A DNA stretch of 36,375 nt from Rhodospirillales bacterium (lineage in GTDB: Bacteria; Pseudomonadota; Alphaproteobacteria; Acetobacterales; Acetobacteraceae): NCBI GenBank assembly GCA_025352665.1, contig JANXSM010000027.1:1-36375 (forward strand). Direction: 5' to 3'. Of this stretch, positions 9,121-34,287 are shown in pieces (position 1 is the stretch's first letter; each line of letters begins with the position of its first letter). Below the pieces are notes generated by a model. It saw only the letters and a program-made list of their open reading frames with translations, was not told the origin of the DNA and searched no databases. The position numbers and the translations under genes were made by a program.

Positions 9121-9228
9121 CTAGGAGCAATATCGCCTGAGGTTGGACCAATCTAGCGATAGAATTGCTATTGAGAACAGCATGTTATAGGCAAATTGCT
9201 TTGCCTACAAAAAGCGATAGGGCTCTAG
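9121..9228 (-). repeat. Type A repeat, diverged copy in reverse orientation
   Basis: Read on the minus strand, this is a degenerate version of the 107-bp type A unit. The best-kept part is the distal end, GGAGCAATATCGCCTGAGGT on the plus strand at 9124-9143; the hairpin half (9184-9228) has drifted. It shares its CTAG (9225-9228) with the forward copy that follows, giving a head-to-head pair between the convergent TSUP and DHA2 genes. Confidence 0.7.
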
Positions 9229-9330
9229 AGCTTGATCGCTCCTGGCAGGCGAAGCGGTCGTGCTCTAGCCCTCTGTTTCAACGAGCAACTTTCCCGCGCG
9301 GTTGGTTCAACCTCAGGCGATATTGCTCTG
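9225..9330 (+). repeat. Type A repeat, forward copy
   Basis: It starts CTAGAGCTTGATCGCTCC, forms an imperfect hairpin closing at GTGCTCTAG (9260-9268), continues through a T-rich CCCTCTGTTTCAAC tract and GGTTGGTTCAACCTCAGG, and ends GCGATATTGCTCTG (9317-9330). The last base pair of CTAG has mutated. The DHA2 permease gene, coming from the other side, ends inside it at 9313. Confidence 0.85.
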
Positions 9331-10797
9331 ACGATCGGCAGCGCGGGCGTGGCCGGACATCTCCTGCGCGGCGTTTCGCGGCATCATCAGGTTAATGGGT
9401 GCGGCACTGAGCGAGATGAGGGCGACCACGACAAACCCCACGCTGAAGTCGAGCAGGCCGGGGTTTTCGTGTCCCTGGGCGCGCATCGACAATTCCAGAA
9501 CGGCGGCCCCGATGGTCACGCCCAGGGTCAGTGAAACCTGCTGGATGGTGCTGAACAGGCTGGTCGCGGCACTCATGCGCTCGCGCGGTATGTCGGCGTA
9601 GGCGACCGCGTTGTAGGCGGTGAACTGCAGTGAGCGGAAGAAGCCGCCGCCGAGAAGGCAGAGATAGATCGCAGCGATCGGCCACGCCGGCCGGAATGCG
9701 GCGCACACGCCCAAGAACGCAGCCGAGATAACTGTGTTGACCAGAAGCGTGTCGCGAAAGCCGAACCGCCGGAGGGCACCCATGGCGGCAGGTTTCATGA
9801 CGATCGCACCTGCGGAGCTGGCAAAGGTGATCAGCCCGCTTTCGACCGCCGACTTGCCGAACCCGATCTGAAACATCAACGGCAGCAGGAAGGGCACGGC
9901 GCCTACGCCGATCCGAAACAGGGTTCCGGCCACGACTGACACGAAGAAGGTGGGAATTCGAAACAGGCTCAGGTCCAGCAAAGGCGCCGGATGGTGCCGG
10001 GCGTGGCGCCAGTAGCCCAAGCCCGCCATGACCCCGATGCCGAGCAAGACCGCCGTGAGACCGCTGTCCACGATGCCGCGCCCGGCGGTTTCGAGCCCGA
10101 CCATGGTGGCGGCGAGTGCGATGGCCGAGAGCACGAGACCCCAGCCATCCAGTTTGGACCGCGACAGGTCGCGGACATCCTCCACATACAAGGTCACGAG
10201 GGTGATGCCGAGCAGGCCAATCGGCACGTTGATGTCGAATACCCATCGCCAGGACACGTATGTGACGATGAAACCGCCCAGCGGCGGCCCCACGATCGGG
10301 CCGATCAGGGCGGGCATCGACAGCCACGCCATAGCGGCCACAAGTTCTGACTTCTGCACGGAACGCAGCAGCACCAACCGACCAACCGGCACCATCATGG
10401 CGCCCCCCACTCCTTGCAGAATGCGAGCGAGCACGAGGAAGGGCAACGAGTCGGCTCGCCCGCACAGCACCGAGCCCACGGTGAAAACGGCGATGGCGGC
10501 CCGGAACACGGTGCGAGCCCCGAAGCGATCCGCCATCCAGCCGCTCGCGGGGATGAACACCGCCAGGCTGAGCAGATAGGAGGTAAGGGCGACGTTCATG
10601 CGCACCGGGTCGACGCCAAAGTCTCGCGCCATCGTCGGAAGGGCTGTGGCAATCACCGTGCTGTCGAGGTTCTGCATGAACAGCGCACAAGCCACGATCA
10701 GGGCGGTGAGACGCGTGCGGCGCTGGCGATCGCGGACAAAAAGATCGGGTGCGAGGCTTTCGGGCATGATCGGCGGACGAATGGCTGGATCGGTCAT
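9313..10797 (-). CDS. DHA2-family MFS multidrug efflux permease
   Basis: This 494-residue inner-membrane transporter is of the EmrB/QacA (14-helix, drug:H+ antiporter 2) type. It shows the family's D1 motif MQNLDSTVIATALPTMARDF, the WMADRFGARTVFRAAIAVF motif A loop, the ILQGVGGAMMVPVGRLVL motif B, and PLGGFIVTYVSWRWVFDINV (motif C region). It probably exports a toxic compound using proton motive force. No membrane-fusion partner is adjacent. Its final residues, about QSNIA, and its TGA stop are encoded by the forward type A repeat. It follows qor by 9 nt in an ogt-qor-permease operon. Confidence 0.92.
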   Translation of the reverse strand: MTDPAIRPPIMPESLAPDLFVRDRQRRTRLTALIVACALFMQNLDSTVIATALPTMARDFGVDPVRMNVALTSYLLSLAVFIPASGWMADRFGARTVFRAAIAVFTVGSVLCGRADSLPFLVLARILQGVGGAMMVPVGRLVLLRSVQKSELVAAMAWLSMPALIGPIVGPPLGGFIVTYVSWRWVFDINVPIGLLGITLVTLYVEDVRDLSRSKLDGWGLVLSAIALAATMVGLETAGRGIVDSGLTAVLLGIGVMAGLGYWRHARHHPAPLLDLSLFRIPTFFVSVVAGTLFRIGVGAVPFLLPLMFQIGFGKSAVESGLITFASSAGAIVMKPAAMGALRRFGFRDTLLVNTVISAAFLGVCAAFRPAWPIAAIYLCLLGGGFFRSLQFTAYNAVAYADIPRERMSAATSLFSTIQQVSLTLGVTIGAAVLELSMRAQGHENPGLLDFSVGFVVVALISLSAAPINLMMPRNAAQEMSGHARAADRQSNIA

Positions 10798-10806
10798 TGC
10801 CCCGAC

Positions 10807-16790: not shown

Positions 16791-17601
16791 CGCCATTTCC
16801 CGTGCGCCGGTAACGATCATCGCCATCGCAAACCAAAAGGGTGGTGTCGGAAAAACGACGACGGCGATCAATCTGGCAACCTCACTCGCCGCAACCGGCG
16901 AGCTGGTTCTCCTGATCGATCTGGATCCACAAGGCAACGCCTCGACCGGCTTGGGCTTGAGCCGAACCGGCCGCGGGGCGGGAACTTACGCCTTACTGAC
17001 CGAGTCGGTTTCTGTCATGTCGGTGGTTCAGTCAACCATCGTCGCCAACCTTTCGATCGTTGCCGCAGAACCAGATCTTGCCGGTGCCGAAATCGAGTTG
17101 GTGGGCGAGCCACAGCGCGAATTCCGCTTGCGCCAAGCCCTCCGCCCGGCCGGGCACCCCGCCGGACCGTTCACCTATATTCTGATCGACTGTCCGCCCA
17201 GCCTTGGGCTGCTCACGCTTAACGGCCTGGTCGCCGCCGATACGGTGCTCGTTCCACTTCAATGCGAATTCTTTGCACTGGAGGGCCTGAGCCAACTCAT
17301 GCGCACCATCGAGACGGTAAAACACAACCTTAACCGCAGCCTTTCTCTGGAAGGCATCGTGTTGACCATGCACGATCGGCGCAACAACCTCTCCGACCTG
17401 GTCGCCGAAGACGCCAGGAGCTTCTTTGGTGATAAAGTCTACGAAACCGTGATTCCACGAAATATCCGCATTTCGGAAGCACCCAGCCACGGCAAGCCCG
17501 TTACCATGTACGATGCCCGTTCCCCAGGCGCTCAGGCCTATATCAAACTTGCGGCGGAGCTGCTGCGCCGCCAGCAGCCAAACACAGGACACCGCACATG
17601 A
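16771..17601 (+). CDS. parA: Chromosome-partitioning ATPase ParA
   Basis: This 276-residue deviant-Walker ATPase binds nucleoid DNA as an ATP dimer and, with ParB-parS, drives origin segregation. It shows IIAIANQKGGVGKTTTAINL (deviant Walker A with the signature Lys, about residues 16-35), LLIDLDPQGNASTGLGL (Walker A'), YILIDCPPSLGLLTLNGL (Walker B) and VIPRNIRISEAPSHGKPV. The start is GTG 16771 with GAGGTAA just upstream (16761-16767), inside the last codons of rsmG. parB follows with a 4-nt ATGA overlap. Confidence 0.97.
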   Translation: MSDTSPDAISRAPVTIIAIANQKGGVGKTTTAINLATSLAATGELVLLIDLDPQGNASTGLGLSRTGRGAGTYALLTESVSVMSVVQSTIVANLSIVAAEPDLAGAEIELVGEPQREFRLRQALRPAGHPAGPFTYILIDCPPSLGLLTLNGLVAADTVLVPLQCEFFALEGLSQLMRTIETVKHNLNRSLSLEGIVLTMHDRRNNLSDLVAEDARSFFGDKVYETVIPRNIRISEAPSHGKPVTMYDARSPGAQAYIKLAAELLRRQQPNTGHRT

Positions 17602-18464
17602 GTGCCAAAGACTCAAACCCTCGCCTGGGCCGTGGCCTGGCCTCCCTGCTGGGCGATGCTGCCACGGCCTCAAACGCCCCGGCCGCAGCGATGGGTGTGA
17701 AGACCATTCCTGTGGAAATGCTCGAGCCAAGCCCGTTTCAGCCTCGCGGCGCTATGGATCCCACGGCATTGGGTGATTTGGTCGATTCCATTCGCGCTCG
17801 CGGCATTCTGCAACCGCTGCTCGCGCGACCACACCCGACCCTTGCGGGTCGCTTCCAAATTATTGCCGGAGAAAGGCGCTGGCGCGCCTCCCAGGAAGCC
17901 GGCCTGCACGAAGTACCCGTGTTGGTCCGCAATCTCACCGACATGGAAACCATGGCCGCCGCCCTGGTAGAAAACCTGCAGCGGCAGGACCTGAACGCTA
18001 TCGAGGAAGCCGAGGGCTACAAGCGTCTGGTCGAAGAGTTTAAGATGACGCAGGAGACCCTGGGAGAGGCGGTTGGCAAATCGCGCAGCCATATCGCCAA
18101 CACCATGCGCCTGCTCAATCTGCCTGCCACCGTGCGCAACGAGGTTCGCAACGGAGCGCTTTCGGCAGGCCATGCCCGTGCCCTGTTGGCGCATCCTGAG
18201 CCCGAGAAGGCCGCTCTCACCGTTATCTCGCGTGGCCTGAACGTGCGCCAGACCGAGGCACTGTCCAGCAAAAAGGCGGAGGGCGGCCTTTCCGCCACGG
18301 CCAAGGTAAAAGATCCCGAAACCGCGGCATTGGAACGCGATCTATCGCAACGCCTCGGCCTGAAGATCGATATCCACTTTGATGGTAAGGGCGGAGCTGT
18401 GCGGATCCTGTATCGCTCGCTTGACCAACTGGACGGGATTGTCAGCCTACTGAGCCGGGACTAG
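17598..18464 (+). CDS. parB: Chromosome-partitioning protein ParB
   Basis: This 288-residue ParB is a CTP-dependent clamp that loads at parS and spreads. Order: an N-terminal ParA-stimulating LGRGLASLLGD peptide, the CTPase region with QPRGAMDP, IIAGERRWRASQEAGL (GERRxRA, about residues 90-97) and AALVENLQRQDLNAIEEAEG, then the parS-reading helix-turn-helix TQETLGEAVGKSRSHIANTM, and a C-terminal dimer domain after an Ala/Lys linker. It is coupled to parA. The stop codon TAG (18462-18464) is part of the CTAG that begins a type B repeat, whose hairpin and T-tract follow at once. Confidence 0.97.
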   Translation: MSAKDSNPRLGRGLASLLGDAATASNAPAAAMGVKTIPVEMLEPSPFQPRGAMDPTALGDLVDSIRARGILQPLLARPHPTLAGRFQIIAGERRWRASQEAGLHEVPVLVRNLTDMETMAAALVENLQRQDLNAIEEAEGYKRLVEEFKMTQETLGEAVGKSRSHIANTMRLLNLPATVRNEVRNGALSAGHARALLAHPEPEKAALTVISRGLNVRQTEALSSKKAEGGLSATAKVKDPETAALERDLSQRLGLKIDIHFDGKGGAVRILYRSLDQLDGIVSLLSRD

Positions 18465-18515
18465 AGCGGGATGACGTATGATAGGCGACGTCATCCCGCT
18501 CTAGCTCTTTGTTTT
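18461..18515 (+). terminator. Hairpin with T-rich tract at the end of parB
   Basis: Perfect 17-bp arms (18461-18477 and 18488-18504) with a 10-nt loop are followed by CTCTTTGTTTT (18505-18515). On the plus strand this has the form of a Rho-independent terminator, directly at the parB stop codon. The structure comes from the type B repeat. Confidence 0.6.
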
Positions 18516-18583
18516 ATCACGTGGTTCAGACCTTTCGGTGATTCCACCTTCGGTCATCACGCTCTGGGACGATATCGCTCTAA
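18461..18583 (+). repeat. Type B repeat (complete)
   Basis: It begins CTAGAGCGGGATGACGT, has a 10-nt loop containing TAGGCG and closes with the exact reverse complement ACGTCATCCCGCTCTAG (18488-18504). A CTCTTTGTTTTATCACGTGG tract and a tail with CCTTCGGTCATCACGCTCT follow. It seems to end GATATCGCTCTAA (18571-18583), close to the type A end. Its first CTAG supplies the parB stop; its last four bases are shared with the reverse type A copy that follows. Confidence 0.8.
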
Positions 18584-18685
18584 ACCAATATCGCCTGAGG
18601 TTGAATCAACCACGCGATAAAATTGATCGATAAAACAAAAGGTTAGACCTTGACCGCTTCGGCTACCAGAAGCGCTCAGGCTCAA
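18580..18685 (-). repeat. Type A repeat, reverse copy between parB and holA
   Basis: Plus-strand reading is AACCAATATCGCCTGAGGTT, then GAATCAACCACGCGATAAAA, a TTGATCG and AAAACAAAAGG (a T-tract on the minus strand), then the hairpin half with CCGCTTCGGCTACCAGAAGC. Its orientation puts hairpin then T-tract downstream of holA, which is read on the minus strand. Terminal CTAGs have mutated (CTAA and CTCAA). Confidence 0.82.
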
Positions 18686-18718
18686 CCCTGTCCTCCCACG
18701 GTGCGCCACAACGTAAGC

Positions 18719-19744
18719 TCAGCGTGCCATTTCTCTACGCCGCGCCACCGCGGCACGCTGGGCCAAGCCGATGATCGCACTGCGGCACAGAACCTCTGCG
18801 GGTGCACCGGTGCGCTTGCAGGCCCGCTCCGCCTCCCACAACCGAGTGGCTGCCTGCTCCAGCGCCAACGCCGACCACAGCCGCACCGCCCGGCTGAACG
18901 CTGCCTCGCGACGAAAGAACACCGGCGGGCGGGCTGACTTCACGGCCTGGTCGACACTCGACCCTGCGTCCGCGGCCCCCCGAACACGGGCTAGGCGCTG
19001 GATATGCATCAACCCACCCCGCAACACGCTCACCGCCGCGGCGCCCTCAGACAGCGCCAATTCCAACGCACGGTCGGTCGCCACCACGTCGCCCTCTGTC
19101 GCCGCGAACAGCGCATCTTCGAGTGACAGTCCGGATTGATCGCCGACACAGGCGCGCGCCGCCGCGAGATCGACCACGCCGCCGATACCCACGTAAACTG
19201 CCAGTTTATCGATTTCGCTGCGCGTGACCGCCCGGTCCGCTCCGAGCTGATCGGAGAGATACTCCAACGCATCAGCCGCGACAGTCACACGATCTTGTGC
19301 CAATTGGCCTTTGACCAGACCCGGAATTGCGCGAGCCTCCATCGGATAGCAGGCGATCGCGTAACCAAGCTCGCTCTTTTCCATAAGCGCCTTGAGGCGC
19401 GACTTTGAGCCCAGCCCCGCGCCTTCGAGAACCAAAAAGGCAGACCCGAAAGCCGCCAGCGCTTTTTGCACGGCCGCGGTCGAGCCATCGGTTGCGTCCC
19501 GTACCCGTATGACCCGCCGGCCGCCCATGAGCGATTGTGATGCCATTTCGTCCGGAAGCTGGCCCACGGCATCGCGGTCCAGTTCAGTGACTTGGAATGG
19601 ATCGTTCAACGAACCCGCCACAGCACGAACCAGGCGTGTTGCCCATTCCCGGATCAGGCCAGCATCCTCGCCGTGCAGCAGCACGGCACGCGCGGCGCCG
19701 GGATCATCGAGGAAGGCCTCCACGCGTCGCGCGTCGAGCTTCAC
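18719..19744 (-). CDS. holA: DNA polymerase III subunit delta
   Basis: This 341-residue clamp-loader delta subunit opens the beta sliding clamp. It shows RAVLLHGEDAGLIREWATRL (degenerate P-loop region), MGGRRVIRVRDATDG, FLVLEGAGLGSKSRLKALME, and SGLSLEDALFAATEGDVVAT, typical of the family. Length fits. It lies 3 nt downstream of lptE. Gene order leuS-lptE-holA is conserved across many proteobacteria, which strengthens the call. It is convergent with parB, with repeats filling the gap. Confidence 0.93.
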   Translation of the reverse strand: MKLDARRVEAFLDDPGAARAVLLHGEDAGLIREWATRLVRAVAGSLNDPFQVTELDRDAVGQLPDEMASQSLMGGRRVIRVRDATDGSTAAVQKALAAFGSAFLVLEGAGLGSKSRLKALMEKSELGYAIACYPMEARAIPGLVKGQLAQDRVTVAADALEYLSDQLGADRAVTRSEIDKLAVYVGIGGVVDLAAARACVGDQSGLSLEDALFAATEGDVVATDRALELALSEGAAAVSVLRGGLMHIQRLARVRGAADAGSSVDQAVKSARPPVFFRREAAFSRAVRLWSALALEQAATRLWEAERACKRTGAPAEVLCRSAIIGLAQRAAVARRREMAR

Positions 19745-19747
19745 CGG

Positions 19748-24020: not shown

Positions 24021-27000
24021 GTGCATGGATGTCGACCAACGCAGCCGGCAGTTCCATGACCGAAGCCCCCACCGTCCAGACCAGCAGGCAGCGGATCGGA
24101 CGGCCGGGATAGATGGCCGAAAGCACAGCCCGATAGGCGGCCATCTGGCGCAGATAGAGGACCGGCGTGTCTTCGAGCCGGGCCGGCGGGGCACGATGGG
24201 TCTTGTAGTCGGCGAGCAGGATCTCGTGCGGCAGGATGGCAAGCCGGTCGATCAGCCCGCCGATGACCTGGCCCGCGACGACGCCGCTGAGCGGCACCTC
24301 GGCCTGTCCAGCCGGTCCGAACAACAGGGCGAGCATGGGATGGTCGAGCACGGCCAGCACCTCGCCAGCGAGCCTGACTGGGTCGTCGACACCGAGGCCG
24401 GGCTGGTCGAGGTAGGCGAGGGCTGCAATTTCGCGCTCGTCCTCCGCCAGGTCCGGCAAATGCTGGAGCAGCGTGTGCACCAGCTGGCCGCGCCGGAAAC
24501 GGGCGCCGGTGGCATCGCGGGTGGCGAGCGGAGAAGCCGCCTGCGGAACATTGCCGAGTTCAACGCCCTCCGGCCGGCTGGGGGCGAGCGGCTGCGGCAG
24601 CGCCGGCTCGGGGGGTGGCGGTGACGGGTGCCAGCCAGGTGCCGCACCTGCCCAGGCGGGCAGGCTGTGCGGGACGATGGCTGCGGCGCTGCGGTCCCGT
24701 GTCGGGTCGCCGGACTGGGGGCTTGCGTGGCTGCATCGTTCCCCCTCCCAGGGCTCGGCAATCACGTCGAACGGGGCTGCGTCTGCGCCCAGCGCCTCGA
24801 AGCCGCGGGCGACGTGGCTGTACCAGCATGTGTCCGGGACATTCCCCTTGGTCTGCCAGCCGCACACCAGCAGACGATCCTCGGCGCGGGTGAGAGCCAC
24901 ATAGAGCAGACGGTTCTGCTCCTCGGCCTGCCTGGCGACGAGCTCGGCGCGCAGATTGCGGGCAGCGGCACAGCTCAGCTCCTTGCGCGGCGCCCAGACC
25001 GGCAAAGCAAGGCCCGTTTCATCATCCGCCAACCACAGCACTCGCTCGTCCTCCGGCGGCAGCGAAGCGGTATCGGGCAAGATCACCAAGGGCGCCTGCA
25101 ATCCCTTGGCGCCATGCACGGTCATGATCCGCACTGCGTCGAACCCCTCGCCGCCGGGCCCCTCGGCCTCGCGCTTCACCTCGGCGGCGGATTGGCGAAG
25201 CCAGTGCAGGAAGCTCTGCAGCGACGGCGCATGGGTTTGGGCGTGACGCAGGCTGGCGGCGAGCAATTCATCGACGGGTTCGGCGGCTTCCGGCCCCAAT
25301 CGGGCGAACAGCCGGGCGCGGCCACCGAGCGGGCCCAGCGCCTCACTCAGAAGGGCGTGCGGGCTTGCGTGGTCAACCCGGCGGAACAGCATGTCGATGA
25401 AACGATACGCGGCGCGGCATTCCGGAGCCGGGCTGTGCGACAGCGCCTGCCACAGCGTTGCGGGGCGGCCAGCGGCCAGCGCCATCAGCTGGTCGTCGGA
25501 CAATCCACCCAGCGGCGAGGTCAACACGCAAGCCAGGGAAAGATCGTCCTGCGGCAGCAACAGCGTGTCGCACAGAGCCATGAGATCGGCGACGGCAGGC
25601 TGCTCGGTCAGCACCATGCGATCCAGGCCTGCCACCGGCACGCCGCGCGATTTCAAGGCACGCACCAACGCAGGGGCGAAGGCGTTGCGCCGACGCAGCA
25701 GCACCAGGATGTCACCGGCCGCAAGGTCGCGCCCCTTGCTCTCCAAACGCACACCCGTGGTGGTCTGTGTGCGAATCCAATCCGCCAGCGCGTCCGCCAG
25801 GCGCTGCATGGCGCTGACTTGGCGCAAGTTGCGATCCGGGATCACCCAGGGTTCCAGGCTCGGCGCATCGGGCTTGGGCGTGAGCGGCCACAGCTCCACC
25901 TGCCCGGCATGGCGGCTGCGTTCGGGGATGTGCTGCAGCGCGCCGGGCTCGGTGACCCCCGCTGCTGCGAGGGGATTGGCGAACACCGCATCCACCAGAT
26001 CCAGCACGGGTGCGGTCGAGCGGAACGACACGTCCAAGGTCACGTCTCGCCACGTCTGGCCGCTGTCCTCGACACGCCGGCGCAGCACCTTGCGCCAGAA
26101 CTCGAACGCATCAGGATCGGCACCCTGGAAACCGTAGATCGACTGCTTGCGGTCGCCCACGGCAAACACCGTGCGGGCGCCCTCACGCGCCCCGTCGCCG
26201 GTAAAGAAATCAGCCGTCAGTCGCCCGGCAATATCCCATTGCGCCGGCGCCGTGTCTTGCACCTCGTCGAGCAGCAAGTGGTCGAGCCCGCCATCCAGTT
26301 TAAACAGCACCCAGGCGGCGCCAGGATCGACCAGCAGGCCGGCGGTGCGCGCGATCAGATCGTCGTAGTCGAGCCGCCCGGTCGCGGCCTTGGCCTGACT
26401 GTAAAGCTGGGTCACGGGCGTTGCGAGGTCGAGCAAGCTGGCGGTGAGATCGGCGACGGTTGCAGCCTGCCAGCCGTCCTCGATGGCGCGGATGCGAACT
26501 TGCTCGGCGGCGATGCAGGTTTTGAACTCCGGCAGGCTCGGCTCCAGCTTGGCGTTGACGAAGGTGGAATGCTTGCGGTCCTCGCCGGCCTTGGTGAAGA
26601 ACTCCTCGCGCCAGGCGCCCCAGTTCTCCTCGCGCAGATCGGCCTGCAGCGACATCCAGTCCAGCAACCGCTGCGCCTTGGCAGCGACTGCCGGGCTGCC
26701 CTTTCGTGCTGCGACACCGACGCATTCGCGCAAGTCGTGCTCGGCCTGCCAGATCGCGTGCGCCCCGAGCTGCCCTGGCGTGGTGGCGCCGAGCACCCGT
26801 CGCAGGCGCTGGCGGATCAGGTCGGGCCCAAGCGCTGCCACAGCGTCGAGCCGGTTGCGATCGCGCTGCAACCGTTCGACCAGATTGCCGAACCCATCGA
26901 GCGACACGAGCCCCGCGAGGCTTTCCAGCGCCGCCCGCCGCTCCGGCGTGTGGGCGCGGCCCAGCATGGTCTCACGCGCCGCCTGCCAGGCGATCGCGGT

Positions 27001-27459
27001 GTCGCGCTCGTCGACCAGTTCAAAATGCGGCGAAAGCTGCGCCTCCAGCGGAAACCGCCGCAGCAGCGACTGGCAGAACGCGTGAATGGTGCCGATGCGC
27101 ATGCCGCCTGGCAGATCGAGCACCCGGGCGAACAGCGCGCGCGCGGTGCGGGTCGTCTCATCGGTCGGGTCGACGCCAATCTCGCTCAGCTGCTGGCGAA
27201 GATCCGCCGCGTCCAGGCTCACCCAGCGGCCGAGCACGCGTTGCAGCCGCAGCGCCATCTCGGCCGCCGCCGCCTTGGTGAAAGTAAGGCACTGAATACG
27301 CTCCGGCCGCGCCCCTGCCAGCATCAGCCGCAGCAGCCGGTCGGTCAGCAGCTTGGTCTTGCCCGAGCCGGCGGAGGCCGCGACGAACGCGGAAACCATG
27401 GGGTCCGACGCCACTTGCTGGGCCTGCGAGGCGCGTTCGCCGGGAGACAGCGCGGCCAT
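23980..27459 (-). CDS. addA: AddA subunit of the AddAB helicase-nuclease
   Basis: This 1159-residue UvrD-like helicase with a C-terminal nuclease domain processes double-strand breaks for RecA. Motifs in order: VAASAGSGKTKLLTDRLLRL (Walker A), CLTFTKAAAAEMALRLQRVL, LLLDEVQDTAPAQWDIAGRL (Walker B), VFAVGDRKQSIYGFQGADPD, VSFRSTAPVLDLVD, MTVHGAKGLQAPLVILPDT, LYVALTRAEDRLLVCGW, then GGLIDRLAILPHEILLADYK with the PD-(D/E)xK nuclease core. ATG 27459 is used; GTG 27468 is also possible. Its last about twelve residues (RAISPEVEPTVR) and TAA stop are read from the type A repeat. Confidence 0.95.
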   Translation of the reverse strand: MAALSPGERASQAQQVASDPMVSAFVAASAGSGKTKLLTDRLLRLMLAGARPERIQCLTFTKAAAAEMALRLQRVLGRWVSLDAADLRQQLSEIGVDPTDETTRTARALFARVLDLPGGMRIGTIHAFCQSLLRRFPLEAQLSPHFELVDERDTAIAWQAARETMLGRAHTPERRAALESLAGLVSLDGFGNLVERLQRDRNRLDAVAALGPDLIRQRLRRVLGATTPGQLGAHAIWQAEHDLRECVGVAARKGSPAVAAKAQRLLDWMSLQADLREENWGAWREEFFTKAGEDRKHSTFVNAKLEPSLPEFKTCIAAEQVRIRAIEDGWQAATVADLTASLLDLATPVTQLYSQAKAATGRLDYDDLIARTAGLLVDPGAAWVLFKLDGGLDHLLLDEVQDTAPAQWDIAGRLTADFFTGDGAREGARTVFAVGDRKQSIYGFQGADPDAFEFWRKVLRRRVEDSGQTWRDVTLDVSFRSTAPVLDLVDAVFANPLAAAGVTEPGALQHIPERSRHAGQVELWPLTPKPDAPSLEPWVIPDRNLRQVSAMQRLADALADWIRTQTTTGVRLESKGRDLAAGDILVLLRRRNAFAPALVRALKSRGVPVAGLDRMVLTEQPAVADLMALCDTLLLPQDDLSLACVLTSPLGGLSDDQLMALAAGRPATLWQALSHSPAPECRAAYRFIDMLFRRVDHASPHALLSEALGPLGGRARLFARLGPEAAEPVDELLAASLRHAQTHAPSLQSFLHWLRQSAAEVKREAEGPGGEGFDAVRIMTVHGAKGLQAPLVILPDTASLPPEDERVLWLADDETGLALPVWAPRKELSCAAARNLRAELVARQAEEQNRLLYVALTRAEDRLLVCGWQTKGNVPDTCWYSHVARGFEALGADAAPFDVIAEPWEGERCSHASPQSGDPTRDRSAAAIVPHSLPAWAGAAPGWHPSPPPPEPALPQPLAPSRPEGVELGNVPQAASPLATRDATGARFRRGQLVHTLLQHLPDLAEDEREIAALAYLDQPGLGVDDPVRLAGEVLAVLDHPMLALLFGPAGQAEVPLSGVVAGQVIGGLIDRLAILPHEILLADYKTHRAPPARLEDTPVLYLRQMAAYRAVLSAIYPGRPIRCLLVWTVGASVMELPAALVDIHAPRAISPEVEPTVR

Positions 27460-27470
27460 GGAAACCACGT

Positions 27471-30371
27471 TCAAGCGCTTTCTCCCTGATCCCACTCGGC
27501 GACCCGCGCAAGCTGGGCGTAGTGGGAAAAGCGTGGACGCAGGCCGGGATGCGGCTGCGCCAGATACGCCCGATCGACATCGTCGAAAGCGATGACACGA
27601 GACCGCAGCTGGGCCGCGGCCTCGGCTGCGGCCTGGGCGATCTGGTCGGTATCGGCCTTGAACAGCGTGTGCGCCTGACCTGGCTCGAACCCGCCGGTCA
27701 CATGCCAGTAAACCAACTCCGCGGTCGCCGAGCGCCAGGCCTCGCCGAACGCGCCGGCGCTGGCCATGGCGGCTTCCAGCGGCAGCTGCGGCGCGAACCC
27801 TGCATCCACGGCGGACTGCGACGGCGGCGCGCCGGTCTTGTAGTCGAGGATGGCGATGCTGCCATCGGCTCGGCGTTCGATCCGGTCGGCTCGGCCGGTG
27901 AGGCGAAACCCGCCGGGCACAGCCAGTTCCCAGAAGCCCTTCAATTCGGTGCCGATGGCCGCCGGGCGGTGCAGGTTGCGCCGGGCGATCTCGGTTTCCG
28001 CCGCCCAGTCGGCGATGCGGTCCAGCCGCGGTGACCACCATTCCCCCAGCGCCCGGCGCAGCCCAGCCATCGCCAGCGCTTTCTGCATGGCCATGCGCAA
28101 CTGGCGGCGCGAAGCACCGGTCCAGCCGGCGCCGTGCTCGGCCAGGAACAGCTGGAAGCCAGAATGCACCAGCGATCCGTAATCGGCAGCATCGGTCGCC
28201 TCCTCCAGTGGCCTGAGCGGGGACAGCCGCAGGATATGGCGGGCGTAGATCGCGTAGGGATCGGCTGACCAGGTCTCGATTTCGGTCACGCTGAGACGGC
28301 GCGGCCGCAGCCCCACCGGGGGGCGCGGGGTGGGCGGGCTCACCGGCCGCGCCGGGCCGTCTGGCTGATCCAGCAGCCGCGCCCACTGTGCGGCGGGGTG
28401 ACGTTCAAGCGCCTGACCATGCCCTTGCAGGTAGGCATCCAGCCGCGCCAGCCAGCGCGCGGGCACCGCGGGCGCCCCGTCGCGCCGGCGCGGGCAGGAC
28501 AGCACGGCCACCGGGGCGGCACAGGCGGCCATCACGAAATCATGCGCGGTCTCACCCACGCGCTGCTCCGGGCTGGGCAGGCCGACGGCGGTGCGCATCG
28601 GCCGGCTCAGCCAGGGGCCGGGATCGGTCGCCGGCGGCCAGATCGTTTCGGCAAGCCCGCCGAGCACGATGGTCTCGACCGATTGCAACCGGGCCTCGAG
28701 CAGGCCCCAGATGAACACACGCGGATGCTCGCTGACGGCTGACCGCCCGCGCAACGCACGACGGCTGCGCACCGCGATGCCTTCCAGCAATGCGTCGAGC
28801 AAGCCTGGAAGCACGCCGGGCACCTGGTCGGGCAGCCGAGATAACGCCTGGAGGGCCGAGGCCAGACATTCGGCCAGCGCCTGGCCTTCCTCCTGGCTCC
28901 AAAGCCGCGCGGGGCCAGGCACCTCATCCGTGGTCGCCAGGGCCTCCGCGACTTCGACCAGCGCTGCCAGCATGTCCGCCGGGCCCACCAGCAATTCCGC
29001 TGACAGCCGCAGCAACGGAGAGATGGCCGCCTCGATGCGAGACAGAAAATCATCCATCCCGTCCGCCTCGGCCGCAGCACGGCGCAGGCCGGACAACCCA
29101 GCCTCCGGCCGAGGTCCTCGCAGGCTGGAGACCTCGAGCGCCCGGGCCAGCCGGCGACATTCAGCCGGGGCCAGACCGGCCGCGGCGAGCGGATGTTTCA
29201 GCACCGCGAGCAAGGCCACCGGCGCCAGACCCTCATCAACCGCGGTGGCGAGCAAGCGCAGGAACACCGCCGGCGGGGTGTGCGCCAATGGCTCGCCGGC
29301 GCTGTCATCGGCCACCACACCCCAACGCAGCAACTCGGCCGCGACACGCGTGGCCAGCTGCCGGTCGGGCGTGACCAGGGCCGCCCGCGCACCCGGCGTT
29401 TCCAACGCATCGCGCAGGATCAACGCAATGGCGACTGCCTCCTCCTGCGCATCGGCCGGTTCCAGGCGGAACAATCCCGCCGGGGTGGAATGCCGCGTGT
29501 CCCGCCAGGAGCCGAGGTCCGCTGCCGGCAGCAAGGCGGTGGCGAGCAGCCCGGCCCGTTGCGAGACAGGCGCGGACCACAGCGCGACGTCTCCGACCGT
29601 GGCTCCCATCTCCGCCAGCAGCGCCAGCAATCCCGCCTGGGGATGTGACGGCTCGACCTCAGCGGGAGGTGCGAGGTCCAGGCCTGGCAAGATGACCAGG
29701 CCATTGTCCAGCCGTGCCGCAACCTTCAGCAAAGCGGCCACGGCTGAAATGCCGCCATTGGCGCCCGCGATCCACACCGGACGGTCCGGTGGCACGTCCT
29801 GCCACGCCCGCGCCTGGGCCCGCAGCAGCCGCACCTGGCGGGCGGCAGGGTTCATCCAGCCATGGGCGTCGAGGAACAGCGGCCATTGCCGCGTCACGAT
29901 GTCGAGAAACCGCAACGTGACATCCCAATGGGCGGCCAGGGCGCCATCAGCGGCACCTTCGAGTGCCGTCGGCAAGTCCATGATCTCCGCGCGCTCCGCC
30001 TCGTCCATCAGCTCGGCCAGCGCCTGGGCGAGCTGCCATGCCTGGTCGGCGCCGGTGACGCCACCGGCTGCGACCGGCAACGCCAGGATCATGCGGGTCA
30101 GCTCGGCCAGCCGCAGCGCCGGGTCGATCGCAGGCGGCAGGTCGAGAGCCCCCGCCAAGGTGAGCGGCGCCTCGTCGAGGGCTCCGATGGCGGTGATGCG
30201 CGGCAGCAGCATCGGCTGGCCACCGGAGACACGCAGGAACGCCTCTGCCAGCGAGCGGGCGGCCCGGCGAGTCGGCAGCAGGATCAGGCCGCGCGATACC
30301 CCGGTGTCGAGCCACCGTGCGGCCACGACATCGAGGAACGGCACATCGGCGGGAATGGTGACAAGGTTCAC
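27471..30371 (-). CDS. addB: AddB subunit of the AddAB helicase-nuclease
   Basis: This 966-residue alphaproteobacterial-type AddB is the partner nuclease of AddA and the likely Chi-recognising subunit. The N-terminal helicase-like region is degenerate (SRGLILLPTRRAARSLAEAF lacks a proper GKT). The C-terminal PD-(D/E)xK nuclease has LTGRADRIERRADGSIAILD followed by YKTG, and an entry segment SVTEIETWSADPYAIYARHI where Fe-S-type AddB proteins carry a cysteine; no cluster cysteines are seen. Start GTG 30371 overlaps the tsaE stop (GTGA), with GGGAGGG upstream. addA begins 11 nt after its stop. Confidence 0.94.
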   Translation of the reverse strand: MNLVTIPADVPFLDVVAARWLDTGVSRGLILLPTRRAARSLAEAFLRVSGGQPMLLPRITAIGALDEAPLTLAGALDLPPAIDPALRLAELTRMILALPVAAGGVTGADQAWQLAQALAELMDEAERAEIMDLPTALEGAADGALAAHWDVTLRFLDIVTRQWPLFLDAHGWMNPAARQVRLLRAQARAWQDVPPDRPVWIAGANGGISAVAALLKVAARLDNGLVILPGLDLAPPAEVEPSHPQAGLLALLAEMGATVGDVALWSAPVSQRAGLLATALLPAADLGSWRDTRHSTPAGLFRLEPADAQEEAVAIALILRDALETPGARAALVTPDRQLATRVAAELLRWGVVADDSAGEPLAHTPPAVFLRLLATAVDEGLAPVALLAVLKHPLAAAGLAPAECRRLARALEVSSLRGPRPEAGLSGLRRAAAEADGMDDFLSRIEAAISPLLRLSAELLVGPADMLAALVEVAEALATTDEVPGPARLWSQEEGQALAECLASALQALSRLPDQVPGVLPGLLDALLEGIAVRSRRALRGRSAVSEHPRVFIWGLLEARLQSVETIVLGGLAETIWPPATDPGPWLSRPMRTAVGLPSPEQRVGETAHDFVMAACAAPVAVLSCPRRRDGAPAVPARWLARLDAYLQGHGQALERHPAAQWARLLDQPDGPARPVSPPTPRPPVGLRPRRLSVTEIETWSADPYAIYARHILRLSPLRPLEEATDAADYGSLVHSGFQLFLAEHGAGWTGASRRQLRMAMQKALAMAGLRRALGEWWSPRLDRIADWAAETEIARRNLHRPAAIGTELKGFWELAVPGGFRLTGRADRIERRADGSIAILDYKTGAPPSQSAVDAGFAPQLPLEAAMASAGAFGEAWRSATAELVYWHVTGGFEPGQAHTLFKADTDQIAQAAAEAAAQLRSRVIAFDDVDRAYLAQPHPGLRPRFSHYAQLARVAEWDQGESA

Positions 30372-30796
30372 AGTCTGCCCTCCCACCCCGTCATCTCGGC
30401 CACGCGGCAATCGCCTGCCCCTGGCGTCAGGGCGATGTGCAGCGCGTCACCGGGGGTCAGATGTCCCAGCCGGTCCGGCCATTCCACCAGCACCACATCC
30501 TGCGTGAGCTCGTCCCAGCCCAGCTCCATCACCGCCCCGGGACCGTCGAGCCGCCACAGGTCGAAATGATGGGCGGTGAAACGCGGCGCCTCGTAGCTCT
30601 GCACCAGCGTGTAGCTCGGGCTCGGCACCTCCAGCGCCGGGTCGCCCACCGCCGCGCGCAGGAACGCCCGCGCGAAGGCGGATTTTCCGGCACCCAAGGG
30701 GCCCTCCAGCAGGATTGCATCGCCAGGTCGCGCCAAGGCTGCGGTGCGGGCGGCGAGCGCTTCGGTGGCGGCGAGGTCGGGCAGGTCCACGAACAT
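30368..30796 (-). CDS. tsaE: tRNA t6A biosynthesis ATPase TsaE
   Basis: This 142-residue P-loop ATPase helps TsaB-TsaD make N6-threonylcarbamoyladenosine at position 37 of ANN-reading tRNAs. It has DAILLEGPLGAGKSAFARAF (Walker A, residues 32-39), PSPSYTLVQSYEA, HHFDLWRLDG and VVLVEWPDRLG, as usual. Only 6 nt separate a TAGGTT from its ATG, so no ribosome binding site fits and the mRNA is probably leaderless. It overlaps addB by 4 nt. In many relatives an aminoglycoside-phosphotransferase-like kinase and a nucleotidyltransferase lie between tsaE and addB; here they are absent. Confidence 0.94.
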   Translation of the reverse strand: MFVDLPDLAATEALAARTAALARPGDAILLEGPLGAGKSAFARAFLRAAVGDPALEVPSPSYTLVQSYEAPRFTAHHFDLWRLDGPGAVMELGWDELTQDVVLVEWPDRLGHLTPGDALHIALTPGAGDCRVAEMTGWEGRL

Positions 30797-30802
30797 GCCG
30801 AC

Positions 30803-30839
30803 AACCTAGCCTTGCCAACGGTGCAAGCACAGCTAGGTT
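30803..30839. promoter_or_regulatory. Dyad-symmetric divergent promoter for tsaE and the FNR gene
   Basis: AACCTAGC (30803-30810) and GCTAGGTT (30832-30839) are an exact inverted repeat, with a nested CTTGC/GCAAG pair inside. Each arm reads TAGGTT toward its own gene, and in both directions exactly 6 nt separate TAGGTT from the ATG. On the plus strand TTGCCA (30812-30817) lies 16 nt before TAGGTT. The layout fits two back-to-back -10 elements whose transcripts start at the ATG. It could also be an operator. Confidence 0.5.
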
Positions 30840-30845
30840 TGCCGA

Positions 30846-31874
30846 ATGAGCGAGATCCACCCGACTGCCACCCTGTTCACCGACGTCGCGATCATCGGCG
30901 CGGGACCCGTTGGGCTGTTCGCGGCCTTCGAATGCGGCATGTTGAAGCTAACGTCGCTGCTGCTCGACTCGCTCGACGAAGTGGGCGGCCAGTGCACGGC
31001 GCTGTATCCGGAAAAACCGATCTACGACATCCCCGCCCACCCCGAAATCGAAGCCGGGGCGCTGATCACCAACCTGGAACGCCAGATCGAGCCATTCCAG
31101 GTGCCACGCCTGCTCGGCCGCAGAGTGGAACGGATCGACGGCCAGGTCGGCGGCTTCGTGCTGCACACCGACCGCGGCGAACATATCCATGCCAAGGCCG
31201 TGGTGATCGCAGCCGGTGCCGGCGCGTTCGGCCCCAACCGGCCACCGCTGGAGGGATTGCCAGCATACGAGGCCAGCGGCGCGGTGCAGTATTTTGTCCG
31301 CCGGCGCGAGGATCTTCGGGGCCGCCGCGTGGTGATCGCCGGCGGCGGCGACAGCGCGGTCGACTGGGCGCTGGCCCTGCGCGGCGTCGCCGCAAGCATC
31401 CAGGTGGTGCACCGGCGTGCCAAGTTCCGCGCCGCACCGGAAACCGCCAGCCAGCTCGACGCCGCCGCCGCGGCCAGTGAGGTGGAGCTGGTCATTCCCT
31501 ACCAGCTGCACGCCCTGCACGGTGCCGACGGCAAGCTTACCCAGGTGGAGGTGGCCGATCTCGACGGCCTGACCCGCCATCTGGAAGCCGACGTGCTGCT
31601 GCCGTTCTTCGGCCTGTCGATGGATCTGGGCCCAATCGCCAGCTGGGGGCTGGACCTTGCCCGCAACCATGTTTCGGTCACGCCATCGACCTGCGAGACC
31701 AGCGTCGCCGGGATCTTTGCCATCGGCGATGTGGCGACCTACCCCGGCAAGCTGAAGCTGATCCTGCAAGGCTTCAGCGAGGCCGCAATGGCCGCACATG
31801 CCATCCACCCCATCGTCCACCCCGACGTTGCGCTGCATTTTGAATACAGCACCTCGAAGGGCGTGCCGACGTAG
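30846..31874 (+). CDS. Ferredoxin-NADP reductase, thioredoxin-reductase-like type
   Basis: This 342-residue flavoenzyme resembles YumC-type ferredoxin/flavodoxin-NADP+ reductases. It has the FAD motif DVAIIGAGPVGLFAAFECGM, the GGQCTALYPEKPIYDIPAHP segment, the NADPH motif RRVVIAGGGDSAVDWALALR, HRRAKFRA, and the FAD-closing SVAGIFAIGDVATYPGKLKL. There is no CxxC, so it is not a thioredoxin reductase. It passes electrons between NADPH and ferredoxin in the cytoplasm. There is no leader long enough for a ribosome binding site. The stop TAG (31872-31874) belongs to the outer end of a type B repeat. Confidence 0.93.
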   Translation: MSEIHPTATLFTDVAIIGAGPVGLFAAFECGMLKLTSLLLDSLDEVGGQCTALYPEKPIYDIPAHPEIEAGALITNLERQIEPFQVPRLLGRRVERIDGQVGGFVLHTDRGEHIHAKAVVIAAGAGAFGPNRPPLEGLPAYEASGAVQYFVRRREDLRGRRVVIAGGGDSAVDWALALRGVAASIQVVHRRAKFRAAPETASQLDAAAAASEVELVIPYQLHALHGADGKLTQVEVADLDGLTRHLEADVLLPFFGLSMDLGPIASWGLDLARNHVSVTPSTCETSVAGIFAIGDVATYPGKLKLILQGFSEAAMAAHAIHPIVHPDVALHFEYSTSKGVPT

Positions 31875-31910
31875 CGCGTGATGATGTTGGATAGGCGACG
31901 TCAGTCTGCT

Positions 31911-31965
31911 CTAGAGCTTGATCGCTTCTGGTAGGCGAAGCGATCAAGCTCTAGTCTTTTGTTTT
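31911..31965 (+). terminator. Hairpin with T-tract after the FNR gene
   Basis: Perfect 18-bp arms (31911-31928 and 31937-31954) with an 8-nt loop are followed by TCTTTTGTTTT (31955-31965). This is a strong Rho-independent terminator shape on the plus strand, 37 bp after the FNR stop codon, carried in by the type A repeat. Confidence 0.65.
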
Positions 31966-32017
31966 AACGAGAAATTTTATCGCACGGTTGGTTCAACCTC
32001 AGGCGATATTGCTCTAG
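31911..32017 (+). repeat. Type A repeat (complete, 107 bp), inserted in a type B repeat
   Basis: CTAG (31911-31914) and CTAG (32014-32017) flank the unit. It has the best-kept hairpin of the family: 18-bp perfect arms CTAGAGCTTGATCGCTTC and GAAGCGATCAAGCTCTAG around TGGTAGGC, followed by TCTTTTGTTTTAACG, then TTTTATCGCACGGTTGGTTC and AACCTCAGGCGATATTGCT. Same length as the copy at 23914. Confidence 0.93.
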
Positions 32018-32060
32018 CTCTCTGTTTTATCGCGTGATCTCACCTTCGGTCATCAACGCT

Positions 32061-32537
32061 CTAAGGCTTCATGGGCATCGTCATGGTTCCGTGATCCATT
32101 GGCATTGCGGGACCTGAATCGCCTGCTCGGCCGACGGTGACTGTCACAGTCACGGGGGGAGCCTTCTCGAAGGTGAGCGTCATCGGGAAGGTGGCACCTG
32201 GCACGAGCGGATGCGTGAGGCCCATCATCATCAGGTGGTAGCCGCCTGGCTTCAGCTCCACTGGCTTGCCAGGTGGCAAATCGAGCGCCTCGACCGGCAG
32301 CATCTTCATCACGCCGTTGTCTGCGACCGTGCGGTGCAGCTCCACCTTGCTCGCAGCCGGGGAGCTCGCGGACAGCAGCCGGTCCGCAGCGCCGCTGTCG
32401 GTCAGCGTGAGGAAGGTCCCGCCGACCTTCTGGCTGGCCGCGGTGGCCCGCGCCCAGGCCCCGGTTGCGGTAACGCTGGGTGTCTGCGCCAGAGCGGGGG
32501 TTGCAATCAGCAGGCTGGCCAGCAGAAGACGCTTCAT
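32061..32537 (-). CDS. Periplasmic copper chaperone, PCu(A)C family (DUF461)
   Basis: This 158-residue exported protein has a signal peptide MKRLLLASLLIATPALAQ. The PCu(A)C copper site is visible: KVELHRTVADNGVMKMLPVE gives the His and Met, and KPGGYHLMMMGLT the HxM pair. A Met/His-rich tail, AMPMDHGTMTMPMKP, may add Cu(I) ligands. Such proteins hand copper to cytochrome oxidase or protect against it. AAAAGGA precedes ATG 32537. Its TAG stop is read from the outer end of the type B repeat. A small membrane-protein frame lies just upstream. Confidence 0.92.
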   Translation of the reverse strand: MKRLLLASLLIATPALAQTPSVTATGAWARATAASQKVGGTFLTLTDSGAADRLLSASSPAASKVELHRTVADNGVMKMLPVEALDLPPGKPVELKPGGYHLMMMGLTHPLVPGATFPMTLTFEKAPPVTVTVTVGRAGDSGPAMPMDHGTMTMPMKP

Positions 32538-32550
32538 GGTGATGTCCTTT

Positions 32551-32709
32551 TCAGTGATGCCGGGCACGCGATGTTGTTCCGCGTACAGCAAAAGCCACCC
32601 CGACCAGCAAGATCTCGCCATACCACATGCCGCCATGCCCGCCGCCTGCCACCAACGCGATCATGCTCAGCGTGAGCAGGCTCAGCGTGAGCAGGCTCAG
32701 CGCGGGCAC
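32551..32709 (-). CDS. Possible small membrane protein upstream of the copper chaperone
   Basis: This is an open frame of 52 residues from GTG 32709. It has a first hydrophobic helix built from two LSLLT repeats (VPALSLLTLSLLTLSMIALV), a glycine/histidine turn AGGGHGGMWYGE, a second helix ILLVGVAFAV and a basic tail RGTTSRARHH. The stop is 13 nt before the copper-chaperone ATG. The 15-bp tandem repeat (32666-32710) keeps this frame, which favours coding. No clear ribosome binding site is seen, and a start at another codon is possible. I do not recognise a family. Confidence 0.35.
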   Translation of the reverse strand: MPALSLLTLSLLTLSMIALVAGGGHGGMWYGEILLVGVAFAVRGTTSRARHH

Positions 32710-32710
32710 G
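32666..32710. repeat. 15-bp tandem repeat, three units
   Basis: CTCAGCGTGAGCAGG occurs twice exactly (32666-32680, 32681-32695) and a third time with changes (32696-32710). The unit is a whole number of codons and on the minus strand adds the residues LSLLT to a predicted membrane helix. Confidence 0.85.
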
Positions 32711-32793
32711 CCCAGCGCCGCGACGCAGGCGGCTGGTCGTATCGATGCGTGGCCTGGCTTGCCAGTCTCGCCCGCGCCCAGGAGAGTGCCGGG

Positions 32794-34161
32794 ATGTCAG
32801 ACTCAGCCCAGCAGGACGGCCTGCCGCCCAACCGCCGCCTTTGGGCGATCGCCACCATCGTCATTTCCATCGGAATGGCCTCGCTGGACAGCTCGATCGC
32901 CAACACCGCCCTACCCACGATCGCAACCGACCTGCAGGCGAGCCCCGCGGCCAGCATCTGGGTGGTCAACGCCTACCAGCTGGCCCTGGTGGTCTCGCTG
33001 CTGCCATTCGCCTCGCTCGGCGAGATCCATGGCTATCGCCGTGTGTTCCTATGGGGGCTCGGCGTGTTCACCCTCGCCTCTGCCCTGTGCGCGGTCAGCT
33101 GGTCGCTGCCGACACTGGCCGCCGCCCGCGTGCTGCAGGGGTTCGGCGCCAGCGGGCTGATGAGCGTGAACGTGGCCCTGATCCGCTTCATCTTCCCCAA
33201 CAAGCTGCTGGGCCGCGGCCTGGGGATCAACGCTCTGGTGGTCGGCGTGTCGACCGCGATCGGGCCGACGGTTGCCTCCGGATTGCTCTACGTGTCCGAC
33301 TGGCCGGCCCTGTTCGCCGTCAACGTGCCCCTGGGGATCATAGCATTCACGCTGGCACTGCGCGCCTTGCCGCGCACAGACCGCTCCGGCCATCGCTTCG
33401 ACGGGATGAGTGCACTGCTCAATGCGGCAAGCTTCGGGTTGCTGATTTTCGGCATCAGCGAGGGCTCGCACAGTGCAGACCCTTGGCTTACCGGCGTGAT
33501 CATTGTAGCCGCCCTGGTATTCGGCGTGCTGCTGATCCAGCGCCAGCTCACCCTGCAGGCGCCGATGCTGCCGGTGGACCTGTATCGCCGGCCGATCTTC
33601 GCTCTGTCCTCGATGACCTCGGTATGTTCGTTCGTGGCCCAGGGCCTGGCCTTCGTGGCGCTGCCCTTCTATTTCCAGACCGTGCTAGGCCGCAGCGCCG
33701 TCGAGACCGGGTTGCTGTTCACGCCATGGCCGATGATGACGGCATTGATGGCCCCGATTGCGGGATCGCTCTCCGACCGCCACCCGCCGGCCGTGCTGGG
33801 AGGCATCGGCCTCGCGATGCTGGCGGTAGGCCTGCTGCTGATGGCGCTGTTGCCGGCCAACCCCACCATCCCGGACATCGTGTGGCGGATGATGCTGTGC
33901 GGTGTGGGGTTTGGATTTTTTCAGTCGCCCAACCTGCGGGCGATCATGTCGAGCGCGCCGCGCGAGCGGAGCGGGGGCGCCAGCGGCATCGTGGCGATTT
34001 CCCGGCTGACCGGCCAGTCGGTCGGCTCGGCATTGGTGGCGCTATGCCTGGGGTTGGCTGCCATGCGCGGGCCGCAACTGGCGCTTCTGCTCGCGGCGGG
34101 GTTTTCGATCTTTGCCAGCGTGGCCAGCCTGTCGCGGTTGATGATCGCGCGGCGCTTGTGA
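32794..34161 (+). CDS. MFS permease, DHA2-like drug transporter
   Basis: This 455-residue inner-membrane protein has about 14 hydrophobic segments. The D1-type motif is MASLDSSIANTALPTIATDL, followed by IWVVNAYQLALVVSLLPFAS, GEIHGYRRVFLWGLGVF (motif A) and ARVLQGFGASGLMSVNVALI (motif B). Similar proteins export drugs or metabolites by proton antiport. ATG 32794 follows AGGAGA (32780-32785) at good spacing, which decides the start. It is divergent from the copper chaperone gene. A type A-like repeat begins 20 bp after its stop. Confidence 0.92.
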   Translation: MSDSAQQDGLPPNRRLWAIATIVISIGMASLDSSIANTALPTIATDLQASPAASIWVVNAYQLALVVSLLPFASLGEIHGYRRVFLWGLGVFTLASALCAVSWSLPTLAAARVLQGFGASGLMSVNVALIRFIFPNKLLGRGLGINALVVGVSTAIGPTVASGLLYVSDWPALFAVNVPLGIIAFTLALRALPRTDRSGHRFDGMSALLNAASFGLLIFGISEGSHSADPWLTGVIIVAALVFGVLLIQRQLTLQAPMLPVDLYRRPIFALSSMTSVCSFVAQGLAFVALPFYFQTVLGRSAVETGLLFTPWPMMTALMAPIAGSLSDRHPPAVLGGIGLAMLAVGLLLMALLPANPTIPDIVWRMMLCGVGFGFFQSPNLRAIMSSAPRERSGGASGIVAISRLTGQSVGSALVALCLGLAAMRGPQLALLLAAGFSIFASVASLSRLMIARRL

Positions 34162-34180
34162 CGCCAAGGCCCGCGGATTG

Positions 34181-34287
34181 CTGGAGCGGGATGACGTTTG
34201 GTAGGCGAAGTGGCCGGGCTCCAGCCCTTTATTTCAACGAGCAATTTTATCGCGTGGTTGGTTCAAACTCAGGCGATATTGCCCTCA
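34181..34287 (+). repeat. Chimeric repeat: type B-like stem start with type A tail
   Basis: It begins CTGGAGCGGGATGACGTTTG, matching the type B left arm, then TAGGCGAAGTGGCCGGGCTC CAG and a CCCTTTATTTCAACGAG tract. The rest, CAATTTTATCGCGTGGTTGG to GGCGATATTGCCCT, is type A. The stem pairs only at its base (CTGGAGC with GCTCCAG). Length 107 bp. It lies between the MFS gene and a small convergent gene whose stop abuts it. Confidence 0.85.

Follow-up and report, generated by a model that had tools for sequence, protein, structure and literature searches.

The window analysed here, the whole of a 36,375-nucleotide contig (C159; GenBank JANXSM010000027.1) in the 5.27-Mb, 177-contig draft genome of a Rhodospirillales bacterium of the Acetobacteraceae, carries eight two-hairpin units at five places, six of one kind (type A) and two of another (type B). 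These repeats, their movement and their origin are the subject of this report. The order of parts within a unit is CTAGAGC, stem 1, GCTCTAG, a T-rich linker, stem 2 and GCTCTAG. The type A consensus is 107 bp long, with an 18-bp first stem and an interrupted second stem of 17 pairs, and this layout of two independent arms and a linker within about 110 bp is that of the CIR (CcrM-associated intergenic repeat) type considered below. Type A units in the window were called with a covariance model, R1, which marked six of them, and families of direct and inverted repeats were located mechanically at the places that a first-pass annotation of this DNA had named. The five places of that annotation stand, and its seven copies become eight.

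At the first place, a degenerate and inverted type A unit (9122-9228, minus strand; called from its sequence and an R1 score of 66.1 bits) has a CTAG in common with the next type A unit (9225-9331, plus strand; 107.2 bits), which according to the open reading frame (ORF) table and Pfam lies between two convergent genes; a minus-strand major facilitator superfamily (MFS) ORF terminates within it, at 9313. At the second place, a type B unit found by blastn (18461-18566, plus strand) is separated by 13 bases from an inverted type A unit (18580-18686, minus strand; 102.4 bits), the sequence of which still reads GAATC at offset 22. The existence of this type B unit had been recognised earlier, and its extent, then given as 18461-18583, is corrected here to 18461-18566 followed by the 13-base spacer. 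The third place holds a 107-bp type A unit (23914-24020, plus strand; 124.4 bits) for which empty sites were found in relatives. At the fourth place, comparison with the intact type B unit 18461-18566 revealed that a type A unit (31911-32017, plus strand; 133 bits) is nested in the internal CTAG of another type B unit, whose first part runs up to that CTAG (31871-31914, plus strand; sequence and repeat family D2) and whose second part follows the inserted unit (32014-32063, plus strand; sequence, ORF and Pfam) and contains the end, at 32061, of a minus-strand copper chaperone ORF. The 18-bp first stem described in the first-pass annotation is perfect in the nested unit, where it encloses the loop TGGTAGGC, and has two mismatches in 23914-24020. 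The unit at the fifth place (34181-34287, plus strand; 92.3 bits and sequence) is a mosaic in which the first arm begins like type B (GGGATGACGT) and the remainder is type A. This unit and a second mosaic, L036, both join a type B-like first arm to a type A-like second arm; thus, arms are exchanged between the unit types.

The hairpins of these units are conserved while their sequence is replaced. This was observed in a structure-blind MAFFT alignment (A3) of 35 diverse units, composed of two from the genome of the window and 33 of 46 candidate units; the 13 that were left out (L034, L036, L056, L061, L074, L077, L088, L090, L091, L100, L105, L113 and L114) had ends that the script did not resolve, had a longer first stem (Rhizobiaceae) or were near copies. 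Stem 1 was paired in 92.5% of the cells of this alignment, compared with 67.6% (standard deviation, sd, 1.2) after shuffling and 31-39% when the arms were slid. Two-sided changes were found in 16 of the 18 stem 1 pairs and amounted to 151 cells against 48.3 (sd 5.7), counts that do not represent independent events since the rows are related by descent and some were taken from the same genome. Additionally, all 35 units folded better than 50 dinucleotide shuffles of each (mean z -7.6, weakest -2.9). A DDE transposase has no need of a hairpin. One could simply read both stem 1 arms as end-like sequences tracking the local insertion sequence (IS) end; selection on a transcript is another candidate reason for the retention of this stem. 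No match to the window was obtained in Rfam at gathering thresholds.

Searches of the same genome by blastn returned at least 51 type A matches (40 of 144 candidates scored) and at least 69 type B pieces, 42 of them near full length (40 of 214 candidates scored), with partial and opposite-strand pieces included in these counts. R1 gave at least 148 matches at E<=0.001 (150 of 2331 candidates scored). Because R1 also picked up some type B places and in a few cases matched one unit on its opposite strand, we estimate the total at about 140 units or more. With such copy numbers from blastn and R1, a chance origin of the repeat family is excluded, and the scarcity of further copies that the first-pass annotation had named as a possible outcome of a whole-genome search was not encountered.

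Beyond this genome, R1 matches were present in 141 of 299 Acetobacteraceae genomes, this one included, under stricter filters at which weak matches are lost. Unit sequences vary between the genomes in which they were seen; an exact 32-mer taken from a unit had no match in the genome contigs searched, and a looser pattern made of the conserved parts identified 49 stretches in named genomes. These belonged to Acetobacteraceae (Acidisphaera, Falsiroseomonas and several metagenome-assembled genomes, MAGs), Bosea, Xanthobacter, a Caulobacteraceae MAG, Neomegalonema and a MAG labelled Nitrosovibrio, and the same layout with other stem sequences was found in several alphaproteobacterial families. The Nitrosovibrio-labelled MAG, by its label a betaproteobacterium, holds many units (L067, L076, L078-L080 and others), explained either by transfer or by mislabelling or a mixed bin. 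On plasmids, type A had no blastn match, type B had one weak match in Asticcacaulis, and a unit of genome G140 matched six Rhizobiaceae records; units of similar layout are present on plasmids of Rhizobium, Pararhizobium and Asticcacaulis. With an R. tropici unit as the query, 396 plasmid records were matched, 331 from Rhizobium and 63 from Sinorhizobium, and the Rhizobium matches are presumably RIME1. A search with R1 on pSymB of S. meliloti 1021 found nothing.

The target duplication of the units is TA, and insertion occurs at a TA within YTAR, mostly CTAG. At the gene junction that carries the unit 23914-24020 in the window, the unit is missing from all seven same-genus genomes, and two conserved motifs are spaced by 26 bases in each of the seven relatives and by 129 in the window (+103). 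For a Rhizobium unit, the junction has a TA in 4/4 empty plasmids, one TA each; these four plasmids were chosen for fetching since they were apparently empty, and the filled copy has mutated TAs. Among type A copies, 24 of 33 have TA at both ends, with the neighbouring bases C..G in 16, C..A in 6 and T..G in 2, and the 12 type B copies that our pattern resolved among 14 fetched regions (L178 and L182 were not resolved and were excluded) have the neighbours C..A in 5, C..G in 4, T..G in 2 and T..A in 1. The form Y-TA...TA-R fits every one of the 36 copies with TA at both ends. The left and right flanking 4-mers are identical in 18 of the 36 and different in the other 18 (10/24 type A and 8/12 type B). 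Since a 4-bp duplication would leave identical 4-mers unless one of them mutated later, we take the duplication to be TA. Genome G073 has five copies identical in sequence, each at a different site and each with CTAG on its left and CTAA on its right. Altogether, the empty sites and the flank statistics bear out the first-pass view of these units as mobile, MITE-like (miniature inverted-repeat transposable element) repeats with CTAG ends, and the contrary outcome that it had considered, the same copies at the same places in all relatives, did not occur.

A candidate mover with the same ends is present in the genome. The IS630 DDE domain (PF13358) was found at 21 places, and two of these, L118 (969-2029) and L119 (1199-2256), are elements of about 1.06 kb bounded by CTAGAGC...GCTCTAG. 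Two frames of each match the IS630 family model NF033545, the longer ones with 157.4 and 148.5 bits against a cut-off of 100 and the shorter ones below it. An exact TAGAGC lies 102 nt past the DDE domain in 5 of the 18 loci examined among the 21, and elsewhere (eight genomes surveyed, seven with matches) a TAGAGC right end at 99-102 nt was detected in 6 of 30 loci examined out of 39 matches, the six belonging to Bosea, Acidisphaera and G073. Plasmid-borne IS630 relatives, 17 of which were fetched, have a TAGAGC left end in 14 cases (L216, L218 and L229 yielded none and do not figure in the 21 left ends considered below) and a GCTCTA right end in 16, and they include ISRm10-1 of S. meliloti. 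As TAGAGC was the search key for IS ends, its conservation among them is by selection; GANTC, discussed below, was no key. The shared ends thus consist of TAGAGC...GCTCTA in L118 and L119 and of one end in other loci, with a partial match beyond.

This further match was scored over the 16 bases past GAGC against 2 to 7 listed unit ends from each genome, with the 375 GAGC sites of the window, unit copies masked, as the control. IS ends of the genome under study had a mean of 9.18 against 6.15 for the control (11 ends; none of 20000 draws reached this value), those of G073 a mean of 12.0 against 5.03 (2 ends), and those of Bosea a mean of 6.25 against 4.59 (P 0.02; 4 ends, one of which carries the result). 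The best pairs were the left end of L117 with the type B right end (20/27) and, in G073, an IS right end with the left end of a unit (21/25); the right end of L121 matched the type B left end at 15/22. Judging from these three pairs, the hairpin-1 side of a unit would correspond to the IS right end and the hairpin-2 side to the IS left end.

The IS630 left ends also carry a motif that was not used to find them. In 20 of 21 left ends, GANTC, the site of the methylase CcrM, is found at offset 22, counted from the TA, and the figure is 17 of 18 once near-identical ends are removed; besides the plasmid elements, the genome of the window contributed L116, L117, L118, L119 and L131 and other genomes L137 and L144 only, and the distance to the domain is unusual in three of these (467 in L116, 411 in L131 and 372 in L144). 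Offsets 22, 23, 25 and 26 are fixed in 17 or all of the 18 ends, and the base at offset 24 among the 17 is A in 9, G in 5, C in 2 and T in 1. Across offsets 6-21 the commonest base reaches at most 12/18, and offset 27 is G in 15/18. A Methylocystis IS that was recognised by its 20/24 terminal repeat alone has GANTC at offset 22 as well. The IS630 relatives of Planctomyces and Piscirickettsia, which we take to be hosts without CcrM, had no recognisable ends, so this CcrM-less control is empty. A second GANTC follows the first by 9-13 bases (offsets 31-35) in 11 of the 18 non-redundant left ends, and some right ends have one at offset 7.

Many units share this feature. GANTC occurs at offset 22 in 16 of the 35 units of A3, a count in which right ends were anchored on the first GAGC and at least five rows lacking GAGC (L038, L039, L040, L051 and L068) were loosely anchored and scored as misses, and in 10 of 12 type B copies. 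Any GANTC is present in 25 of the 35 diverse units, compared with about 8% expected. The genome has one match to the RAMA domain, in a 386-aa DNA methylase that also has an N6_N4_Mtase domain, a make-up which we take to be that of CcrM; among 14 control genomes, RAMA was found in Caulobacter only. By its domains, this enzyme of the genome is CcrM-like.

We consider it very probable that the units are non-autonomous MITEs which one group of IS630 transposases mobilises in trans. In such a mechanism, the actual element would be GAGC...GCTC, which would insert at a TA inside YTAR (mostly CTAG) and duplicate this TA. The hairpin-1 side of the unit would be the counterpart of the IS right end, its hairpin-2 side that of the IS left end, and the CcrM site at offset 22 of the latter would be inherited by many units. 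Because the internal and terminal CTAGs of one unit would serve as targets for the next insertion, tandem and nested arrays could arise. Methylation of GANTC would then gate transposition after replication, in the manner of Dam for IS10 and IS50, an analogy that suggests such timing as a hypothesis. A wider proposal is put forward tentatively, as its chances seem to us somewhat short of even: that this IS630 group across the Alphaproteobacteria times its transposition to the hemimethylated state behind the replication fork through the CcrM site of its left end, and that the CcrM-site repeats of the class (the CIR type, and probably RIME and Bru-RS) are its MITEs, which would owe their methylation site to IS630 and not to host regulation. 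Jumping may in this way be tied to the cell cycle.

Several findings weigh against this explanation or narrow it. No transposition was observed. The empty sites within the genus are not CTAG or TA, so insertion is evident there and duplication is not visible. TA is lacking at one or both ends of 9/33 type A copies and on the right of 2/8 fetched copies in G140. The IS ends of the genome resemble its unit ends only partly past GAGC, no IS630 with ends close to type A was found in this draft genome, and the IS ends of Acidisphaera failed to match its units (mean 3.5, below the control of 5.27); sites of the window served as the control for all four genomes in these comparisons. As for the motif, L116 has its GANTC at 20, a candidate Bosea left end (L161, at distance 516 and uncounted) has none at 22, and the abundant type A has mostly lost the offset-22 GANTC, which it keeps in 2/33 copies. 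At this offset, type A reads GAACC in 25/33.

Other movers, or none, would have to account for the same observations. IS5-family elements duplicate 4 bp of the form YTAR, and the first-pass annotation had named an IS5-like element as one of two possible movers; the YTAR/CTAG target fits such an origin, as do the two identical flanking 4-mers in half of the 36 copies. The 4-mers of the other half differ, however, and the five identical G073 copies, with CTAG on the left and CTAA on the right in every case, conflict with a 4-bp duplication, whereas IS630 ends fit without such a conflict. On these flank statistics, we regard IS5-family MITEs as very improbable. The other mover that had been named was a RAYT (a REP-associated tyrosine transposase, Y1), which would move REP-like (repetitive extragenic palindromic) units as single-stranded DNA with the hairpins as its recognition signal. 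Retention of the first hairpin as its sequence changes (92.5% pairing against 67.6% shuffled, 16/18 pairs) is what such an enzyme would call for, but PF01797 (Y1) had no match in this draft assembly, compared with 5 of 14 control genomes positive, and the units have TA on both flanks where the Rhizobium empty sites have one, so that this origin, too, is very unlikely. Equally slight is the chance that the units are not mobile at present and persist as conserved regulatory RNA or terminator elements. Their stable folds (mean z -7.6 over 35 units) and the position of several window units between convergent genes would suit such a role; their absence at the orthologous junction in 7/7 relatives and the five sequence-identical copies at five sites of G073 would not. 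Moreover, of nine terminator-like sites in 17000-36375 a single one falls within a unit, and nine is fewer than the shuffle mean of 12.3. On these site counts a terminator role is weak, and it could at most be a side role of the units.

The IS630 transposases being the favoured movers, the meaning of the offset-22 GANTC is a separate question. It may be only part of a transposase binding site or promoter, unrelated to methylation, and this we hold to be a real possibility, though one we would not place at even odds. The proximity of GANTC to the terminal repeat agrees with it, and so does the multiplication of type A even though most of its copies have lost the motif. Against it stand the background frequency of GANTC, 0.00079 per base, and the pattern of conservation: G, A, T and C are fixed, any of the four bases can stand in the middle, and there is variation at most neighbouring positions apart from the G that follows in 15/18. 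With four fixed bases and a free middle one, the motif therefore has the look of a methylase site.

Repeats of comparable design have been described. CIR (Chen and Shapiro 2003) are CcrM-associated intergenic repeats of Caulobacter, Brucella and other Alphaproteobacteria (PMC2229807, PMC10969869), and PMC2229807 gives them as about 110 bp, intergenic, with two arms and a linker, TA ends and, in one arm, a GANTC at or within the terminal loop. By this description, the present units are like CIR in size, two arms and linker, TA ends and intergenic position, and resemble them in GANTC to a varying degree, with the motif at offset 22 in most type B and few type A copies; they differ in that mobility and the origin of GANTC are here traced to IS630 ends. 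In that 2008 review, the mobility of CIR is said to need more information, and whether GANTC was captured or arose by base changes is left open; the text of a 2024 review of MITEs, which lists CIR, contains the term IS630 zero times (PMC10969869). Bru-RS1 and Bru-RS2 of Brucella (Halling and Bricker 1994), palindromic repeats of 103-106 bp in two related kinds according to PMC2267715 and PMC10800456, resemble the units in size, palindromes and number of kinds, again by description. For RIME1 of Rhizobium (Osteras 1995), the point of contact is that the Rhizobiaceae plasmid units found here have two arms and GCTCTA/AGAGC ends. The RUP element of Streptococcus pneumoniae, in its review entry (PMC2229807), is 107 bp long, has a TA target and was proposed to be mobilised by IS630-Spn1 from its ends. 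Length, target and an IS630-type mover are thus shared by description, but that entry has no DNA motif and forms its stem from the two ends of RUP, whereas the units here have two separate arms. ISRm10-1 and other alphaproteobacterial IS630 have the same TA-GAGC ends and offset-22 GANTC as the units, and differ from them in their transposase gene and length of about 1.05 kb.

Dam control of IS10, IS50 and IS903 is cited in PMC9296519, a paper that names both CcrM and IS630 and, in the parts seen, makes no link between them. A link of CcrM with IS630 was not found in print in the literature searched, which left out most subscription journals, nor was a mover or an origin of the methylation motif for repeats of the CIR layout. 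The same offset in the ends of the IS630 group offers a concrete and testable answer to how CIR move and where their motif comes from. If it is true, the mover of a widespread type of intergenic hairpin repeat is known, and CcrM may time mobile DNA across a large part of a bacterial class.

Some further observations concern the sites at which the units and their relatives lie. In two type B units, 18461-18566 and the one beginning at 31871, the TAG of the first end doubles as the stop codon of a gene, a ParB gene (18462-18464; Pfam ParB) in the former and an oxidoreductase gene (31872-31874; Pfam) in the latter; insertion at a TAG stop preserves the stop codon. Outside the units, CTAG occurs 9 times in the window against 112.8 expected from base composition, a scarcity that may make gene ends natural targets for insertion. 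Solo first hairpins of about 40 bp with TA at both ends adjoin IS630 ends in L127 (1343-1384) and L116 (996-1035), so half a unit may be mobile by itself. IS630 remnants lie about 80-200 bases from units on contigs C170, C128 and C15 of this genome, as though CTAGs of the units had served the IS as targets. Finally, the window carries an IS256-family transposase (34690-36139) divided between the ORFs 34922-35950 and 34753-35181; since several other contigs end in stretches of it, this transposase region has probably been collapsed as a repeat and interrupts the assembly.

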